Shown here piece after piece: positions 1-27,332 of a stretch of 64,000 bases of DNA. Origin of the DNA: Falsirhodobacter xinxiangensis (GTDB lineage Bacteria; Pseudomonadota; Alphaproteobacteria; Rhodobacterales; Rhodobacteraceae); NCBI RefSeq assembly GCF_004959935.1, contig NZ_SMYN01000001.1, positions 1-64,000 of the forward strand, written 5' to 3'. The position numbers and the translations under genes were made by a program. Each line of letters begins with the position of its first letter. The stretch's first letter is position 1. The notes beneath the pieces were generated by a model. It worked only from the letters and a program-made list of their open reading frames with translations, did not search any database and was not told where the DNA came from.

Positions 1-141
1 GGCCTTCACGGCGATCTTGACGGGCTGGACCTCAACCGGGGCGATCTGGCGCTTGGCAATCGCGGCGCGGTCGCGGCGGGCCATGGCGATCATGCGCTCA
101 CGGATGACGTCCTCGGGGAGGATGGGGGTCATGGCGTTCAT
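1..141 (-). CDS. Partial element gene, cut by left window edge
   Basis: A leftward ORF starts with ATG at 141 and is open to the window edge (47 codons seen; MNAMTPILPEDVIRERM then a basic stretch rich in Arg, Ala and Lys). Its ATG overlaps the stop of the methyltransferase as ATGA, which indicates the same leftward operon and translational coupling. The visible part has no motif that I recognise. It is probably a small early gene of the integrated element, but the product cannot be assigned. Confidence 0.55.
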   Translation of the reverse strand, partial: MNAMTPILPEDVIRERMIAMARRDRAAIAKRQIAPVEVQPVKIAVKA

Positions 142-737
142 GCTGCGGCCTCCTGAGCGCGCGGCGCCCATTCGCGATAGATGCTTGTGTTCACATTGGT
201 GCCGCTCTCGGCGAAGCTGCCCACCGGCAGATCGCTCCAGCGGTCGCGGCCCTCGGGCAGTGCCCCATAGTCGTAGCGGGCAGTGCTGGGCAACACGGCG
301 ATCAGGCGGCCACCGGGCTTAAGGAACCGGCGGGCATGCTCGACGTGCTTGAGATAATGGCGGCCAACGAAGGGAGGGTTCATCACCACGACGTCGTAGA
401 CGGGGCGCGGCTGCACCCGAAGAAAGTTGGCGACCAGCACATCGTGCCCTTTGGCGCGGCACTCGACAGCACGGGCTCGATCGACCTCGACACCAAATAC
501 CTCAGCACCTGACTTGTGGATGGCATCCATGAACCGACCACAACCGCAGGATGGCTCCAGCACCTTCATGCCGGGACGCAGTTCTGCGCGCTCCAGCGCC
601 GTTGCCACGACGGCCTCGGGTGTGGGGTAGTAGGCCAGATCCTTGCTGACCTCGGTGGAGGCCTTACGTTTGGGGTTCTCGTCCGGCGTATCGGGCAAGA
701 CGTCGCCGTAGAACTCGGCCAGCCCTCGGTCGGGCAT
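138..737 (-). CDS. N6-adenine-type DNA methyltransferase of the element
   Basis: This is a class I SAM-dependent methyltransferase of about 199 residues. It carries a motif-I-like segment (LEPSCGCGRF) that should bind SAM and the catalytic NPPF motif of amino-methyltransferases (VVVMNPPF), followed by a phage-typical tail (SFAESGTNVNT). It probably methylates adenine in DNA and may protect the element. I chose ATG 737. The reading frame is also open upstream to 785 but without good coding character. The gene overlaps the 3' end of the small HTH ORF in another frame, and an A6 run lies exactly at the frame change, so the two may once have formed one HTH-methyltransferase gene. Its stop overlaps the next leftward gene as ATGA. 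Confidence 0.7.
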   Translation of the reverse strand: MPDRGLAEFYGDVLPDTPDENPKRKASTEVSKDLAYYPTPEAVVATALERAELRPGMKVLEPSCGCGRFMDAIHKSGAEVFGVEVDRARAVECRAKGHDVLVANFLRVQPRPVYDVVVMNPPFVGRHYLKHVEHARRFLKPGGRLIAVLPSTARYDYGALPEGRDRWSDLPVGSFAESGTNVNTSIYREWAPRAQEAAA

Positions 738-897
738 GTCCTTTTTTGAAGGTGATCTTATGGATCGCCGCCAGCTGCCGAACACGCTCGCGGCTTATTC
801 CGACCTCCCTTGCCACATCAGCTTGACTGAAGCCTTTGGCGGCGAAGTCTCGCATGATGGGCAAGTGAGGGTTATTCGAGGCGGTAGCTACCTTCAT
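664..897 (-). CDS. Small helix-turn-helix protein, possibly 5' part of the methyltransferase gene
   Basis: The first 50 or so residues form a convincing HTH (AAKGFSQADVAREVGISRER). The remaining 25 residues are Arg-rich and look like a shadow frame. The switch from plausible to implausible protein falls at the A6 run (plus-strand T6 at 742-747), where losing one A would continue straight into the methyltransferase frame. The start codon overlaps the stop of the upstream Cro-like gene (ATGA), so it belongs to the leftward early operon. It could be an independent 77-residue regulator or the N-terminus of a frameshifted HTH-methyltransferase fusion. Confidence 0.5.
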   Translation of the reverse strand: MKVATASNNPHLPIMRDFAAKGFSQADVAREVGISRERVRQLAAIHKITFKKGHARPRAGRVLRRRLARYAGREPQT

Positions 898-1159
898 GCC
901 ACCCTCGTCGTATTTTTGCGGCCAGCACCTTGTGCGGACACGGCTTTATCCACAGTTGGTGAAGTGCGAACCCGCATTTTGAACAGTTCGGGAGGGCATT
1001 CGATGCCCTTCTCGGAAGCGAGTTCTTGACACACAAGGAGCCAAGATGACGGGAACCAACCCCGCTTCTCGAAATTGCTTACAGCGGTCGCGCCCACATC
1101 AAACGCGTCCGCTAGTTTCTTCCGGCCAATGGCTGCTGCAAAGTCGGGTGCTTAATCAT
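894..1159 (-). pseudogene. Cro/YdaS-like regulator with one-base frameshift near its 5' end
   Basis: From ATG 1159 the frame reads MIKHP and then runs into a stop after 15 codons. Restoring one base in the G3 run at 1146-1148 (C3 on the coding strand) gives a coherent protein of about 88 residues: DFAAAIGRKKLADAFDVG, then an HTH recognition part (GATAVSNFEKRGWFPSSW) and a typical tail (ECPPELF). This pattern resembles small phage Cro/YdaS-like regulators that sit opposite the repressor. Without the correction, only a GTG-started 67-residue fragment (1097-894) could be made, lacking the first helices. The promoter predicted upstream would start transcription at or next to the ATG, so the mRNA would be leaderless. 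The lesion could be genuine or an assembly error. Confidence 0.6.
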
Positions 1160-1165
1160 GGCTGC

Positions 1166-1194
1166 AGCATATCCACATATGGTGGAGTATTCAA
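1166..1194 (-). promoter_or_regulatory. Leftward early promoter with operator in the spacer
   Basis: On the minus strand a -35 TTGAAT (1194-1189) and a -10 TATGCT (1171-1166) are separated by exactly 17 bp. Fifteen of those 17 bases are the palindromic operator TCCAC-N5-GTGGA (1172-1186). A start about 7 nt after the -10 falls on or next to the A of the Cro-like ATG (1159), which predicts a leaderless transcript. A repressor bound in the spacer would block RNA polymerase directly. Confidence 0.6.
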
Positions 1195-1237
1195 GCGCCA
1201 CAATCGGTGGTTTGCGGACTTCTCCACGATTTGTGAA
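1172..1237. promoter_or_regulatory. Triple operator between Cro-like gene and repressor
   Basis: Three inverted repeats of one design lie side by side: TCCAC-ATATG-GTGGA (1172-1186, perfect), CCAC-AATCG-GTGG (1198-1210, perfect 4-bp arms) and TCCAC-GATTT-GTGAA (1223-1237, one mismatch). Centres are 25-26 bp apart, about 2.4 helical turns. They sit between divergent regulator genes, like the three-site operators of lambdoid phages. The XRE repressor encoded at 1248 is the obvious candidate ligand; that is inference. Confidence 0.7.
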
Positions 1238-1243
1238 TTATAG
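1215..1243 (+). promoter_or_regulatory. Probable promoter of the XRE repressor gene
   Basis: The third operator copy (1223-1237) is followed directly by TTATAG (1238-1243), an acceptable -10. With the same 17-bp spacer geometry as the leftward promoter, the -35 would be CGGACT (1215-1220), which is poor. A weak -35 is typical of repressor-maintenance promoters. The start would fall at about 1250, at the repressor ATG (1248), again suggesting a leaderless or almost leaderless mRNA. There is no Shine-Dalgarno sequence in front of the ATG, which fits. Confidence 0.4.
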
Positions 1244-1247
1244 CCGC

Positions 1248-1508
1248 ATGGCTATGCAAGAACCCGAATTCACCGAGATCGGCCAGCGCCTCGCGCGCAT
1301 CAGGACCGGGCTATCCGACCTGAGCCAGAAGGCATGGGCAGAGAAGCATGGCTTCAACCCGACCCAGTATAACAACTGGGAAAAGGGCGTCCGCCGCATC
1401 CCGGTCGAAGCGGTTGACCGCCTATGCGACACCTACGGCCTGACGATGGATTTCGTGTATCGCGGAAGGCGTGACGGGCTGGCCGACAGCATCAAGAACT
1501 CCGTCTGA
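1248..1508 (+). CDS. XRE-family repressor (CI-like, DNA-binding domain only)
   Basis: The protein of 86 residues is almost all helix-turn-helix. The start region is followed by EIGQRLARIRTGLS, then a turn and recognition helix (FNPTQYNNWEKGVRRIP) and a short closing segment (DRLCDTYGLTMDFVYRG). There is no cleavage or dimerisation domain of the LexA/CI type, so induction by RecA-driven self-cleavage is unlikely. I chose ATG 1248 (ATG 1254 is possible) because the HTH begins there; the upstream open frame to 1158 runs through the operators and is not coding-like. It is divergent from the Cro-like gene and flanked by three copies of a palindrome that it probably binds. Confidence 0.75.
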   Translation: MAMQEPEFTEIGQRLARIRTGLSDLSQKAWAEKHGFNPTQYNNWEKGVRRIPVEAVDRLCDTYGLTMDFVYRGRRDGLADSIKNSV

Positions 1509-1646: not shown

Positions 1647-1679
1647 ATGTTCCCGTTATGTTCACGTTATGTTCACGTT
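1647..1679. repeat. 11-bp tandem repeat, three copies
   Basis: ATGTTCCCGTT is followed directly by two identical copies of ATGTTCACGTT; only one base differs in the first copy. The period is close to one helical turn, so a protein could bind all copies on one face of the DNA. The repeat lies in an 80-bp gap between the small leftward ORF (start 1630) and the coiled-coil ORF at 1713. Function is unknown: iteron-like binding sites or simple slippage are both possible. Confidence 0.75.
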
Positions 1680-2075: not shown

Positions 2076-3512
2076 ATGCTATCACAGGACATGAGGCGCC
2101 TGAAAAATTAGTGGGGAACCGGTGCGGGATGGCCGAAGCGGCTAGAATGGATCGAGATCGAGGGCGTCAGGGGATGGAGCGGACAACGGGTAGATTTCAA
2201 TTTTCCAATCGTCGCGATCGTTGGAGAAAACGGGTCAGGAAAGAGCACGCTGCTTCAGGCGGCTGCGGCAGCCTATAAATCACCGCAAAAGGATAGATTC
2301 GCTTCCGACTTCTTTCCCGACACCCCCTTCGAGAAAATAACCTCGGCTACTATTCGCTATTCCGTTCGGCAGGGGCCGAACTCTCAGACTAAAACAGTTC
2401 GCAAGCCAACTAACCGTTGGCGCGGCAATCCCGAGCGTCCGGAACGCAACGTTCAGTATGTCGACCTGAGACGTATCCCGCCGGTAAGTGCAAGAACAGG
2501 ATACGCGAAACTTCTAAAGGCTGGGGTTGCGGAAGGTATTTCAACTGATTTCGACGAGGGGAAGCTAGCGCGCCTTACACAGATCGTCGGCAAGAAGTAT
2601 ACTGCCGCTGGCATTTCCGTGACTAATGCTGGCGATGACAAGCCTATCCCGGTACTTCAAACAGACGGCGTTAGGTACTCGGGTTTTCACCAAGGCGCGG
2701 GTGAGATTGCCGCTGCAGAACTATTAGCTGTCGATTATCCAAAGTACGGCATAATACTGATAGATGAAGTCGAGACGTCCCTACACCCGAGGGCGCAAAG
2801 ACGGCTGATCAGAGATCTCGCTAAAATTGCTGCATTGAACGAACTTCAGATCGTACTGACCACGCATTCCCCCTATGTTCTAGACGAACTCCCACCGGAA
2901 GCGCGTATATATTTGATGGACGGAGTTGAAGGGAAAACCGTAGTTACTGGCGTTAGCCCCGAGTTTGCGATGACTCGGATGGATGATGAAATCTATCCGG
3001 AATGCGACCTCTATGTAGAGGATCCAAGAGCTTCCTCTTTGCTGGGAGAAATCCTAGCCAGTCAAGATCGGTCTCTGCTCACCCGATCAAGGATTATCGC
3101 GTTTGGCGCAGCATCGGTCGGTGTGGCTCTGGGGCAAATGGCTCACCAAAACAGATTTCCGAGACCATCTGTTGTATTCTTGGACGGGGACCAGTTACCG
3201 GCTCTTGGGTGTAGCATTTTGCCAGGAGGTGACGCCCCCGAACGTGTTGTTTTCGAGGCCCTTTCGGCGCACGGTTGGCCTGACGTGGCAACTCGTTTAG
3301 AGCGTGGCCACGCAGAAACCGTCGATACGTTAAATCAAGCAATGCATCTGGCTAATCATCATGATTGGGTTAGATATGCTGCCGATCGCTTGACCGTAAG
3401 CGGTGATTTGCTTTGGCAGACTCTCGCATCATCTTGGACCAAAAATTGCGCCGGTGACGACGATAAGACTGCGGTTGCTGAATTAGTCCGCGATGCCTTA
3501 AACGGAATTTAG
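2076..3512 (+). CDS. OLD-like AAA ATPase/TOPRIM protein, TAG at codon 12
   Basis: From ATG 2076 (GAGG 7 nt upstream) there are 479 codons including the stop, but codon 12 is TAG (2109-2111). After it the frame is open to 3512 with no ATG, GTG or TTG until GTG 2619, so no normal start can rescue the ATPase domain. Visible domains: Walker A GENGSGKST (residues 50-58), Walker B IILIDE (D230/E231), switch His in LTTHSP (H264), then a probable TOPRIM domain with E315 and VVFLDGD (D370, D372). This order (ABC-like ATPase, then TOPRIM nuclease) is that of OLD-family nucleases, several of which act in phage defence. Codon use is AT-richer than the neighbours (ATA, TTA, AGA frequent), suggesting separate acquisition. 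Gene is intact in body but probably poorly expressed or dead unless the TAG is suppressed. Confidence 0.65.
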
Positions 3513-4105: not shown

Positions 4106-4156
4106 TCCACCTTGTGTGGATTAGTGCTTGGATAGTCCACTATTGGTGGATACCTT
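4106..4156 (+). promoter_or_regulatory. Second repressor-controlled promoter with two operators
   Basis: Two perfect copies of the element operator occur here: TCCAC-CTTGT-GTGGA (4106-4120) and TCCAC-TATTG-GTGGA (4136-4150), centres 30 bp apart. The second sits between -35 TTGGAT (4128-4133) and -10 TACCTT (4151-4156) with a 17-bp spacer made of 2 nt plus the 15-bp operator, exactly the geometry of the leftward promoter at 1166-1194. It should drive the rightward operon that begins at 4210 and ends with the integrase. Confidence 0.65.
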
Positions 4157-4209: not shown

Positions 4210-4410
4210 ATGACCATTCCCGCTTTCCTTGCCACCCCTGACGGCGCGCCGATCCCCGGCGTGATCCTCGCGAACCACGCGCTGATCCAGTATCGCTTCC
4301 CGTCGCTGGCTCGCGTGACGCTGGCAGAGATGCCCGCCATGCCGATCGAGTGCGTCCGCGATGCTGATGGCGTCTGGTCGCCGGTCCTGTCCACCGAAGC
4401 GCGGAGCTGA
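4210..4410 (+). CDS. Small hypothetical protein, first gene of the rightward operon
   Basis: The ORF encodes 66 residues from ATG 4210, with GGAG 7 nt upstream. The product (MTIPAFLATPDGAPIPGVIL at the start) is a compact, mixed-composition protein without recognisable motif. It is the first gene after the operator-bearing promoter at 4128-4156, with a 5' leader of about 45 nt. It is followed after 4 nt by the truncated methyltransferase gene. Confidence 0.55.
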   Translation: MTIPAFLATPDGAPIPGVILANHALIQYRFPSLARVTLAEMPAMPIECVRDADGVWSPVLSTEARS

Positions 4411-4414
4411 GGCG

Positions 4415-5495
4415 ATGGCACAGCACACGCCGGGACCGTGGTTCATCGACCCCGAGGATGAATTCGAGAAGGGTGCCGACGACGAGCGGCACTTGTGGCC
4501 CGACGTTGCCCGGATCATCCGAGAGCTTGCCCCCGGCCTTCGGTGGGTCTTCCTCGAAAACGTATCCGGTCATGTCAGCCTCGGCCTTGAAACCGTGCTG
4601 CGAGAGCTTCACGGCATGGGCTTCGCGGTTGCGGCTGGCCTCTTCACGGCGGCTGAAACAGGCGCGCCGCACGAGCGGGAGCGGGTCTTCATCGTGGCCC
4701 ACCGCGCTTGCGCACGATGTGAGCCCACGCGGACCTGGGCAAGTGGCGAGCGCGAAAGCGGGCAACCGTTGCTTGGGTCGAGAGTCGGAGGCCTGGCAGA
4801 CGCCAGTTGCGGACGACATGGTGGATCGGGAGCGCGGAAAGTGGAACAGCCGCGGAGAGCCGAAGCTATCGGGTCAGGCGATACTCTGGCCGACACCAAC
4901 CCCGATGCAAACGCGGGATGGATGGTCAGAGGCGGATCTGACGGCGGCGAGGGAGAAAGCCAAGGAGAGCGCGAACAACGGCAACGGGTTCGGTCTTGGT
5001 CTGGGGGCGGCAGCATCCGTAGCAATGGAGAAATGGCCGACGCCAGCGGCTCGGGATTACAAGGGCGAGAACAGCCCGGATCACCTGGAGAACGGGACGG
5101 GGCGGCTGCACATGGATCAGCTGCCGAATGCGGTCGCCCATGGGTTCACCCGCCCGGACCTGCCGACATGGCAGGGTGGATGGATACCCTCGCCGTCGCG
5201 CCATATCTCGCGCCAGCTGCTTCGCTTGGTGACCTCGCGCGTTTCACCAGTCAAGTTGCGGCAATGGCTCAAGCGGGGCTGGTGGCGCAAGAGGCGCTTG
5301 AACCCGCTCTTCGTAGAATGGCTACAGGCTTGGCCGAGCGGTCACGCGCTTTGCGCTTGCTCGGGAACGGGGTTCATCCTTTGGCAGCAGGATATGCGTT
5401 TCGCACTCTCGCAGCTGCCCACGGCCTCGGCCCCTTGGATTTGGCAACCTCCGGCACTCGTGATCGAGGCTGAGCAGATGGATCTTTTCGCATGA
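4415..5495 (+). pseudogene. Truncated, frame-ambiguous phage C5 cytosine methyltransferase
   Basis: Starting at ATG 4415, an N-terminus of foreign type (MAQHTPGPW) leads into a C5-methyltransferase body with motif IV (VFLENVSG, ENV at residues 48-50) and TGAPHERERVFIVAH. Motif I (FxGxGG) and the PCQ catalytic loop are absent, so the enzyme should be inactive. Beyond about 4700, two frames stay open on the same strand. The starting frame runs to 5473 and ends with a motif-X-like LRLLGNGVHP; the +1 frame runs to 5495 and reads WPTPAARDYKGENS and RRLNPLFVEWLQAWP, also typical of phage methyltransferase tails. The +1 frame has better codon bias and its stop overlaps the next gene (ATGA), so a frameshift near 4700 is my preferred reading. 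Confidence 0.55.
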
Positions 5496-6997: not shown

Positions 6998-7379
6998 CCG
7001 CCACCTGCCCTTCGCGCTTATCGGCGCAACCGCTGTCGGCTTCGGGATCGGCCTCTGGGCATGTGATGCCCGCGCGGATGGCACGCCTACACCCTTCGAG
7101 CAGGTGCAGGGCCTCATGTGCCCGCCGCCGGTGATGACCCTGGCGGAACGCGCGCCCGGGTGGTGGTTCGGCGAGCGGCCCACCTATGGCGCGTATACGC
7201 CGGACCCGCGCCGGGGGCTGGTGAGCGTGCCAGAGCGGCCTATCGGTGGTGGTGGTGGATCTGAACTGCCGCCGGAACACCCCACGCCCGTGCCCCTGCC
7301 CGCTGCGGGGTGGCTGCTGGGCGGGGCGCTTATCGGCGGAGCCGCGATGGGCCTGTATCGAACGAGGAAGAAGCGATGA
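6990..7379 (+). CDS. Exported protein with VPLPA-type C-terminal sorting signal
   Basis: The ORF encodes 129 residues from ATG 6990. The N-terminus has a hydrophobic export segment (FALIGATAVGFGIGLWAC) and the middle is Pro/Gly-rich with a Gly run. The C-terminus is a textbook sorting tail: the short motif VPLPA, a hydrophobic helix (GWLLGGALIGGAAMGLY) and a basic end (RTRKKR). In Rhodobacterales such tails resemble VPLPA-CTERM signals of host surface proteins. Its place between phage small genes and the excisionase, overlapping the latter by ATGA, is odd and suggests a lysogeny-related surface or envelope role. That is inference. Confidence 0.55.
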   Translation: MTDRHLPFALIGATAVGFGIGLWACDARADGTPTPFEQVQGLMCPPPVMTLAERAPGWWFGERPTYGAYTPDPRRGLVSVPERPIGGGGGSELPPEHPTPVPLPAAGWLLGGALIGGAAMGLYRTRKKR

Positions 7380-7717
7380 GCCTGCTGAAGATCGAGGTAG
7401 CGGCCCAGCAGATCGGGGTGCCGAAAGCATCCCTTCGCTCCGCCGCCGAAAAGCATGGATTCCTTGTCCGCATGGGGCGGGCTATCAGGATCGAACAGTC
7501 AAGATTGCCGGAGTTGATAGAAGCATGCCAGTGCGCGCCAAAGGCCCCCGTCTCTACTGGCACGAAGCCCGCGGCAAGTGGGTCATCCGAGACAGTGGCC
7601 GACCAGAAACTGCAACAGGCACAGCAGACCGTGCAGCGGCTGAAAGACGGCTTGCGGAATACATCGCGCGGCGGGATGGGCCAGCCGTCGGCCCGCGTGA
7701 CGCATCTGCGGTCCTGA
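7376..7717 (+). CDS. Excisionase-like (Xis) winged-helix protein
   Basis: The ORF encodes 113 residues. The first 50 form a small MerR/Xis-type winged helix: MSLLKIEVAAQQIGVPKASL (helix-turn-helix), then AEKHGFLVRMGRAIRI and a helix (LPELIEAC). The tail is Gln/Ser-rich and basic. Position directly upstream of and overlapping the integrase gene (which starts at 7525) is the classic xis-int arrangement. It probably bends att DNA and sets the direction of recombination. Confidence 0.65.
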   Translation: MSLLKIEVAAQQIGVPKASLRSAAEKHGFLVRMGRAIRIEQSRLPELIEACQCAPKAPVSTGTKPAASGSSETVADQKLQQAQQTVQRLKDGLRNTSRGGMGQPSARVTHLRS

Positions 7718-8592
7718 TCAGCGAAGTCCTGACACTCTACGCTGCCGAGCACGCGGTGACGACGAAAGACCCGGTCCGCATCCTGTCTGCCATCGACGCC
7801 CTGCTGCCCTTCTGGGGAAAGCTGACGGTATCAACGGTGCGCGCGGAGACGTGCCGCCGGTATGGAAAGAGCCGCGTCACGAGCAAGGGAATGCCAAAGG
7901 GCAAGACGCGACCGATTGGCGACGCGACGATTCGTCGGGAATTGGGCACGCTGCGCGCCGCGATCGGCTACTGCCATGCCGAGGGATACATCCTCAGCGC
8001 TCCGCCTGTGACCTTGCCCGAGAAGCCTGCGGCCAAGGATCGCTGGCTGACCCGTGACGAGGCGGCCAAGCTGCTCTGGACCGCCTATCGGTCGCGGCGG
8101 GCCAAGCATCTGGCGCGGTTCATCTTGATCGGCCTCTACACCGGCACCCGCAAGGACGCGATCCTGAGGCTTCACTTCAGCGCGAACACCGTGGGCGGCT
8201 GGATCGACACGTCCAGCGGCCTGCTCTATCGGCGCAGCAACAGCGAACGAGCATCGAAGAAGCGGCAGCCACCTGCCCGCCTGCCCAATCGCCTGATGGC
8301 GCATGTCTCGCGGTGGGAGCGGATGGGGGCACGGTTCCCGGTCGAGTATCAGGGCGCCCGGTGCGGCGACATCAAGACTGGATGGGCCGCGCTGGCGGAA
8401 GAATCAGGGCTGACGGACGTGACGCCGCACACCCTGCGCCACACGGCGATCACATGGGCTATGCAGCGCGGTGCGGCGATCTGGGACGCGGCGGGCTTCT
8501 TCGGCGCATCGGTGGAAACCATCGAAAGCACCTATGGGCACCACCATCCCGCGTTCCAAGAGTCGGCAAGAAAGGCCATGGATCGAAGGTAA
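7525..8592 (+). CDS. int: Tyrosine recombinase (integrase) of the element
   Basis: The protein has 355 residues: an N-terminal arm-binding/core-binding part (about 1-165) and a catalytic domain with R209 (YTGTRKDA), H302-x-x-R305-H306 (HTLRH) and the nucleophile Y337 (ESTYGHH). I chose ATG 7525, with GGAG upstream; the open frame before it is shadow of the upstream genes. It overlaps the excisionase gene by about 190 bp in another frame. It ends 67 bp from the 3' end of tRNA-Arg, the presumed attachment site. Confidence 0.9.
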   Translation: MPVRAKGPRLYWHEARGKWVIRDSGRPETATGTADRAAAERRLAEYIARRDGPAVGPRDASAVLISEVLTLYAAEHAVTTKDPVRILSAIDALLPFWGKLTVSTVRAETCRRYGKSRVTSKGMPKGKTRPIGDATIRRELGTLRAAIGYCHAEGYILSAPPVTLPEKPAAKDRWLTRDEAAKLLWTAYRSRRAKHLARFILIGLYTGTRKDAILRLHFSANTVGGWIDTSSGLLYRRSNSERASKKRQPPARLPNRLMAHVSRWERMGARFPVEYQGARCGDIKTGWAALAEESGLTDVTPHTLRHTAITWAMQRGAAIWDAAGFFGASVETIESTYGHHHPAFQESARKAMDRR

Positions 8593-8659: not shown

Positions 8660-8690
8660 TGGCGCACCCAGCACGATTCGAACGTGCGAC
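8660..8690. other. Probable attachment site (att) at the tRNA-Arg 3' end
   Basis: The integrase ends 67 bp away from the 3' half of tRNA-Arg, facing it, which is the usual layout for elements that use a tRNA 3' end as attB. The core is expected within the T-arm to CCA segment. No second copy of this segment is visible at 1-8600, so the other att lies beyond the left edge of the window. The exact core cannot be defined from one end. Confidence 0.5.
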
Positions 8691-8736
8691 CTTTGCCTTC
8701 GGAGGGCAACGCTCTATCCAGCTGAGCTATGGGTGC
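8660..8736 (-). tRNA. tRNA-Arg (anticodon CCG)
   Basis: On the minus strand the sequence folds as a tRNA: acceptor GCACCCA / TGGGTGC, D-arm GCTCAGCTGGATAGAGC, anticodon loop CTCCGAA with anticodon CCG (reads CGG, Arg), T-arm GTTCGAATC, discriminator G and an encoded CCA. It lies 41 bp after the sufS stop, in the same orientation, and next to the integrated element. Confidence 0.95.
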
Positions 8737-26203: not shown

Positions 26204-27268
<1,065 letters not shown>

Positions 27269-27317: not shown

Positions 27318-27332
27318 GTTCGTCTGTTGTTC
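27318..27332 (-). promoter_or_regulatory. LexA (SOS) box upstream of recA
   Basis: GTTC-GTCTGTT-GTTC is a perfect match to the alphaproteobacterial LexA operator GTTC-N7-GTTC. It is centred about 57 bp before the recA start. On the minus strand a -10-like TATAGC (27339-27334) lies immediately upstream, so the box covers the expected transcription start. Confidence 0.85.

Follow-up and report, generated by a model that had tools for sequence, protein, structure and literature searches.

A probable lambda-like phage switch in Falsirhodobacter xinxiangensis with a candidate antirepressor gene antisense to the repressor

The window analysed here comprises positions 1–64,000 of contig NZ_SMYN01000001.1 of Falsirhodobacter xinxiangensis, and all coordinates given below refer to this stretch of DNA. 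Its bases 1 to approximately 8,660 were found to represent the end of an integrated phage-like element, whose tyrosine integrase ORF adjoins tRNA-Arg (8660–8736); the ORFs past this tRNA gene resemble host suf genes when inspected by eye. The start of the window is also the end of the contig and the element is thus interrupted by it. The locus as a whole is best explained as the immunity region of a temperate phage, with the prophage cut by the contig end, an assignment that we regard as fairly probable.

As listed in Table 1, an XRE-type repressor gene and a Cro-like reading frame diverge from an array of three putative operators, while a small ORF preceded by two overlapping LexA boxes runs antisense into the 3' end of the repressor gene and a second operator pair is located further downstream. 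DNA methyltransferase-like genes flank the switch on both sides (138–785, minus strand, and 4361–5473, plus strand). An AAA_21/AAA_15 ATPase gene (2130–3512, plus strand) separates the repressor/antisense pair from the second operator pair; its best PADLOC match is HEC-04 (E 6e-49), and it may be an anti-phage cargo gene.

Table 1. Features of the putative immunity region and the associated integrase gene (window coordinates).
Feature	Position	Strand	Remarks
Extra operator-like site TCCACAGTTGGTGAA	949–963		in 3' part of the cro frame
Cro-like HTH reading frame	894–1151	−	reading frame differs from that of the ATG at 1159
Leftward promoter (putative)	1157–1194	−	TTGAAT (1194–1189), 17 nt, TATGCT (1171–1166), 6 nt, ATG (1159–1157); probably leaderless
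Operator O1 TCCACATATGGTGGA	1172–1186		perfect TCCAC-N5-GTGGA; inside spacer of leftward (cro) promoter
Operator O2 GCCACAATCGGTGGT	1197–1211		4-bp arms; between the two −35 elements
Rightward promoter (putative)	1212–1250	+	TTGCGG (1212–1217), 18 nt, AATTAT (1236–1241), 6 nt, ATG (1248); probably leaderless
Operator O3 TCCACGATTTGTGAA	1223–1237		one mismatch; in repressor promoter
XRE repressor, 86 aa	1248–1508	+	HTH only (HTH_31/HTH_3)
Antisense ORF, 65 aa, candidate antirepressor	1433–1630	−	GTG start, GGAG ribosome site; overlaps repressor 3' end by 76 nt
LexA box GTTCCCGTTATGTTC	1649–1663		in front of antisense gene
LexA box GTTCACGTTATGTTC	1660–1674		overlaps first box
Operator O4, second cluster	4106–4120		perfect site
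Operator O5, second cluster	4136–4150		perfect; in spacer of rightward TTGGAT (4128–4133), 17 nt, TACCTT (4151–4156)
Tyrosine integrase ORF	7246–8592	+	Pfam integrase match; adjoins tRNA-Arg

Homologues of the repressor were collected from genome contigs (5 loci), viral contigs (6 loci, and at least 19 loci in an alignment search), whole genomes (10 of 394 and 6 of 390) as well as phage (3 of 50,697) and plasmid (1 of 72,556) records. The repressor cassette recurs in 10 of the 394 genomes of the window's family; bacterial records carrying the repressor comprise a Rhodobacteraceae MAG, Pseudoroseicyclus, Leisingera (two), Roseivivax and Sulfitobacter, and the three phage records are EBPR podovirus 2, a Bradyrhizobium phage and a Pseudanabaena phage. 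A query with the antisense protein returned 26 viral loci, some of them on contigs already found via the repressor. The 85 repressor-bearing entries were reduced to 43 non-redundant ones, 35 of which, including the window, match the repressor HMM with E <1e-33 and form the set referred to in all counts unless another denominator is given. Of these, 26 were obtained by repressor queries, window included, and nine (L056, L059, L061, L065, L068, L069, L070, L077 and L080) were fetched via the antisense protein and are therefore biased for its presence. Eight distant loci (L025, L026, L029, L045–L048 and L052; E >1e-33) were left out.

A previous reading of this DNA, made from the sequence only, had proposed a divergent switch built on three copies of TCCAC-N5-GTGGA, one perfect, one with 4-bp arms and one with a mismatch. 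All three copies are present as O1–O3, and conservation across the 35 loci supports the divergent three-operator arrangement. Sites with at most one mismatch occur five times in the 64 kb against 1.6 expected, a number reached by 5 of 100 shuffles, while the exact triple with 25/26 bp steps (inner score at least 7/8 per site) occurs once in the window and in none of 60 Markov-1 resamplings. Across the genome, perfect palindromes show no enrichment (6 places versus 10 for the reversed control); three of these six places fall in this element. As such in-window motif statistics are not decisive, the comparison of loci was used instead, and conservation is the stronger proof of the array. Searching related elements for the palindrome, as that reading had suggested, revealed O1 and O2 spaced by 25 bp in 33 of the 35 loci, L023 and L024 being the two without this array. 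Within the 33, the O2–O3 step measures 26 bp in 24 loci and 26 ± 1 bp in 26. O3 is missing in the other seven, four of which (L028, L039, L050 and L080) still have the repressor ATG 36 nt past O2. GTGAA replaces GTGGA as the right half of O3 in 16 of the 26 loci having this operator, and its overlap with the proposed −10 element may explain the mismatch noted earlier. This operator grammar lets the repressor's putative targets be read from sequence.

The leftward promoter with O1 in its 17-bp spacer and an ATG 6 nt further on was found as described before. Its two hexamers agree with the consensus in just 4 + 4 of 12 positions, a sigma-70 promoter scan requiring 9/12 returned nothing at the switch, and −10 hexamers are often poor across the loci. 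The spacing of the start codons is largely fixed on either side. A TTG directly abuts O2 in 31 of 33 loci, and 28 of 33 have one on the opposite strand no more than 8 bases away from it, which places O2 between both proposed −35 elements and O1 and O3 in the spacers. A CAT, complementary to a leftward ATG, is found 9–12 nt left of O1 in all 33 loci (exactly 12 in 22), with bases in between that vary from locus to locus. An ATG in any frame follows exactly 36 nt past O2 in 26 of 33 loci, the next commonest distance accounting for 5 of 33, and on the left side the distance from TTG to ATG is 36 in 17 of 33 and 34–37 in 28 of 33.

A −35 element, a 17–18-nt spacer, a −10 element and about 6 nt to the ATG leave no room for a leader. 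Furthermore, a Shine-Dalgarno core precedes none of the 31 repressor starts and one of the 33 cro starts, yet was detected at 22 of 35 starts of the antisense gene in the same loci, so that the repressor and cro mRNAs are likely to be leaderless. The idea of probably leaderless promoters on both sides, already put forward by the sequence-only reading, is thereby well supported by the mostly fixed distances, the varying sequence and the missing Shine-Dalgarno motif. A leaderless divergent pair has precedent in phage PY54, for which both cI and cro mRNAs are described as leaderless by RACE (PMC4488713), whereas the leaderless starts in the present locus are predicted. PY54 differs in being a lambda-related telomere phage whose Cro is described there to bind one site only (PMC4488713).

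The second operator pair, O4 and O5, is spaced by 30 bp. Of the 35 loci, 25 contain a pair 29–31 bp apart (combined score at least 17/20) downstream of the repressor, while a single base shuffle of each locus left no such pair; it starts 160–440 bp past the repressor stop in 20 of the 25, whereas in the window it lies at a distance of 2.6 kb with the ATPase gene in between. Operator-like sites scoring at least 9/10 are located near the repressor in five of six cases in EBPR podovirus 2 and in three of four in the Sulfitobacter phage-plasmid, and the gene order of these two elements was also taken into account in assigning a second cluster. An extra operator-like site (score at least 9/10) is found 216–257 nt left of O1, within the cro gene, in 8 of 33 loci including the window, compared to 0.6% in shuffles. 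The classical counterpart is the OR/OL system of phage lambda, with divergent cI and cro genes, three operators, a second cluster on the other side and a leaderless cI. Here, too, divergent repressor and Cro-like genes share a three-operator array, with cro frameshifted in the window, and a second cluster is indicated by sites and promoter-like geometry in the 25 loci, its control of a promoter being putative.

The window copy deviates from its relatives in the cro gene. The ATG at 1159 opens just 15 codons and the Cro-like HTH lies in another frame, corresponding to a frameshift, while 31 of 33 loci, all but the window and L021, have a Cro-like frame that is open from the left start. The proposed position of the operators between a Cro-like gene and an XRE repressor is correct as an arrangement, but the ATG assigned to the Cro-like gene is not in frame with its HTH. 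Due to this frameshift, the switch may not be fully functional in the window. One explanation confined to this copy, and compatible with the immunity region reading, would be that it is a decaying remnant in which a frameshift removed Cro, or that the assembly contains an error. Such decay or error would fit the early loss of a frame that stays open elsewhere as well as the end of the contig inside the element; as the repressor, the antisense ORF, the LexA boxes and all five operators in both clusters are intact, we consider it a possibility, albeit a rather doubtful one.

Lambda CI is self-cleaving, and lambda is not known to have an antisense gene under LexA control. The repressor investigated here differs in that it consists of an HTH only and comes with an antisense gene preceded by LexA boxes. 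No peptidase domain was reported for it, and a self-cleaving C-terminal domain of the lambda type was not found, in line with the earlier statement that it has no such domain. It does not belong to the RstR family (NF041951) either, scoring 25.2 bits against a curated cut-off of 80.

From the missing cleavage domain, the sequence-only reading had concluded that the switch must be induced otherwise than by RecA-driven cleavage. This is correct only as far as the repressor itself is concerned, as two LexA boxes lie in front of the antisense gene. GTTCN7GTTC and GAACN7GAAC have been described as alphaproteobacterial LexA sites (PMC3091678). A box of the same type is located at 27318 at the host recA gene (26204–27268, minus strand), and the host lexA gene has two overlapping boxes arranged as at 1649–1674. 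Scanning 200 bases upstream of the antisense core, we found a perfect GTTC-N7-GTTC or its complement at 20 of the 35 loci, 14 of which have it within 60 bp, whereas control spacers of 2–6 and 8–12 gave 0–2 of 35 and scrambled words 0–1. An earlier count had yielded a box in 13 of 26 loci versus 8 of 1,325 background windows. The seven inner bases of the box differ from locus to locus. In the stretch scanned, no perfect box occurs in 15 of 35 loci and none with at most one mismatch in 10 of 35; in 6 of the 20 loci the perfect box is 85–152 bp distant. A sigma-70-like promoter over the box scores 6.9 against 6.1 in shuffles (14 loci), a weak excess. In L008, L009, L020, L056, L068 and L070, a perfect GAAC-N7-GAAC lies 111–152 bp away from the antisense core, towards the rightward promoter, and LexA might also touch this promoter through such boxes.

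With LexA boxes preceding a conserved antisense gene at this locus, RecA most likely still drives induction, namely via cleavage of LexA. A RecA-independent route, such as accumulation of Cro or a metabolic signal, would agree with a repressor lacking a cleavage domain, but in view of the host-type boxes it appears very unlikely. Besides the LexA boxes, the antisense gene, the O4/O5 pair, the site at 949 and the cro frameshift had been missing from the switch as originally outlined.

The antisense gene favoured here as the point of SOS control starts past the repressor gene, converges on it and ends inside it, with its stop at +186 or +189 from the repressor start in 23 loci. It encodes a conserved protein of 57–65 residues with the core RLDRMIEIAdel-v-LDhVV--mGRcdQ-tF----s-nPs-LPRY-kS-v-P. 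Among the 26 loci that the repressor queries had yielded, 24 contain a full-length ORF, L021 and L024 being the exceptions; an HMM count of 35/35 for the protein was not relied on, since similarity confined to the overlap is enough to pass. In the part of the ORF not shared with the repressor gene, pairs of sequences differ by 0.35/0.22/0.64 at codon positions 1/2/3 (22 loci), in contrast to 0.74/0.75/0.74 in the stretch further upstream, and this unevenness against a flat background constitutes a coding signature. Five antisense genes without Shine-Dalgarno motif (L010, L020, L041, L056 and L068) feature TAATTC or TAATTT followed by five to seven bases and an ATG; they may be leaderless, a LexA-like half-site lying between the −10 element and the ATG.

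Overlapping genes of this kind raise the question whether the SOS-driven convergent transcript rather than a protein brings about induction, through antisense RNA or colliding polymerases, with the ORF as an overprinted passenger. The gene does converge on the repressor with an overlap of about 76 nt, and as the wobble positions face each other in the overlap, an open antisense frame would come cheap by sequence argument. The coding signature outside the overlap, the Shine-Dalgarno motif in 22 of 35 antisense genes and the extension of the ORF past the repressor in 24 of the 26 repressor-query loci argue for a translated product instead, making an effect of the transcript alone quite improbable.

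Repressor and antisense protein were also found to travel together. Among the 394 genomes, the same ten match the repressor (E up to 1e-12) and the antisense protein (E up to 1e-5), two of the antisense matches being partial and one of these two containing an internal stop, and a repressor lies opposite in each of the 26 viral loci that the antisense protein query had returned. This co-occurrence is partly forced by the shared DNA. Both genes are annotated in EBPR podovirus 2 (gp64/gp65), and the gene table of the Sulfitobacter plasmid, which is incomplete, lists the antisense gene and not the repressor. Searches with the antisense protein gave no significant match in Pfam, in PHROGs (window and two relatives) or in NCBIfam (window and one relative), and its fold was predicted poorly with pLDDT values of 62.6 and 59.3. 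The one PDB hit with E <0.01, 8vd6, was rejected since it consists of five repeats of just 4–7 bits each. Homology to a known antirepressor family was likewise not found in Pfam, PHROGs, NCBIfam and PDB searches, comparison with such families having been made through family libraries only. The protein thus points to a family absent from the libraries searched, and a function as antirepressor, the least certain step of our proposal, is suggested by its position and predicted LexA control. With neither a family match nor a reliable fold, the protein might also be an SOS-induced accessory such as a modulator of host SOS response or division, a toxin or a second DNA-binding regulator, while another gene induces the phage. 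Its position in the immunity region and its constant pairing with this repressor family, even if partly imposed by the overlap, render such a role unlikely.

We therefore favour, as a fairly probable model, a lambda-like switch with a non-cleavable repressor that RecA triggers indirectly via a LexA-repressed antirepressor. In this model, the repressor dimer would bind palindromes of the O1–O5 type, block both early promoters and tune its own expression, with both divergent mRNAs starting at or within 1–2 nt of the AUG. As the repressor presumably cannot cleave itself, induction would proceed through the small convergent, overlapping antisense gene, which host LexA would repress via the GTTC-N7-GTTC boxes. 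DNA damage would then activate RecA and lead to LexA cleavage, production of the antisense protein and inactivation of the repressor, and antisense transcription may additionally help to lower repressor levels.

LexA-controlled antirepressors of small or medium size, belonging to phages whose repressors are not cleaved, are known. One report describes GfoA, GftA and FsoA of the Gifsy-1/2/3 and Fels-1 prophages, uncleaved Gifsy repressors and a loss of Gifsy-2 induction in a lexA3 background, and it also names Tum of coliphage 186 and AntC of N15 as LexA-controlled antirepressors (PMC3121763). The present locus resembles Gifsy and Fels-1 in having a small gene under predicted LexA control, here a candidate antirepressor known from sequence. 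In Gifsy, however, the antirepressor operon is described as located outside the immunity region, at a relatively large distance from it, rather than antisense to and overlapping the repressor (PMC3121763). Family libraries, the sole means of comparison, gave no link between GftA/GfoA and the antisense protein, and Tum, reported with 146 residues and a DinI-like half (PMC3121763), contrasts with the 57–65 residues found here. Small proteins without homologues that inactivate a phage repressor are also described for TF-smORF modules (PMC10432266). Those modules are driven by a phage transcription factor independently of SOS, with the small gene divergent from the activator gene and not antisense to the repressor (PMC10432266).

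Compared to known LexA-controlled antirepressors, what sets our candidate apart is its antisense, overlapping position inside the immunity region. Titles and abstract openings among the open-licence papers listed contained no description of an antisense overlapping LexA-controlled antirepressor, which is no proof that none has been published. We tentatively suggest that the locus could represent an undescribed class of immunity cassette, in which repressor and antirepressor form an obligate sense-antisense pair, the LexA-controlled transcript acts twice, as template for the protein and by silencing in cis, and repressor and cro are leaderless. If the antisense overlap matters, induction and repressor shut-off would be wired into one transcript. 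Such a cassette might be of interest for the temperate Sulfitobacter phages phi-A and phi-D, which are described as mitomycin-inducible with XRE regulators lacking cleavage domains, their switch proteins being stated as unknown (PMC7305329, PMC9044938). In the related elements in which it recurs, it offers a concrete and testable candidate route from DNA damage to lysis.

Several of the distant loci have other palindromes, of the CTCAC or TTCAC type. Arrays of CTCAC/TACAC-N5-GTGAG and TTCAC-N5-GTGAA palindromes were observed at the distant repressors of L025, L052, L047 and L048, and such differences might be used to relate operator specificity to residues of the recognition helix. A similar antisense ORF is present in the distant loci L026 and L052.
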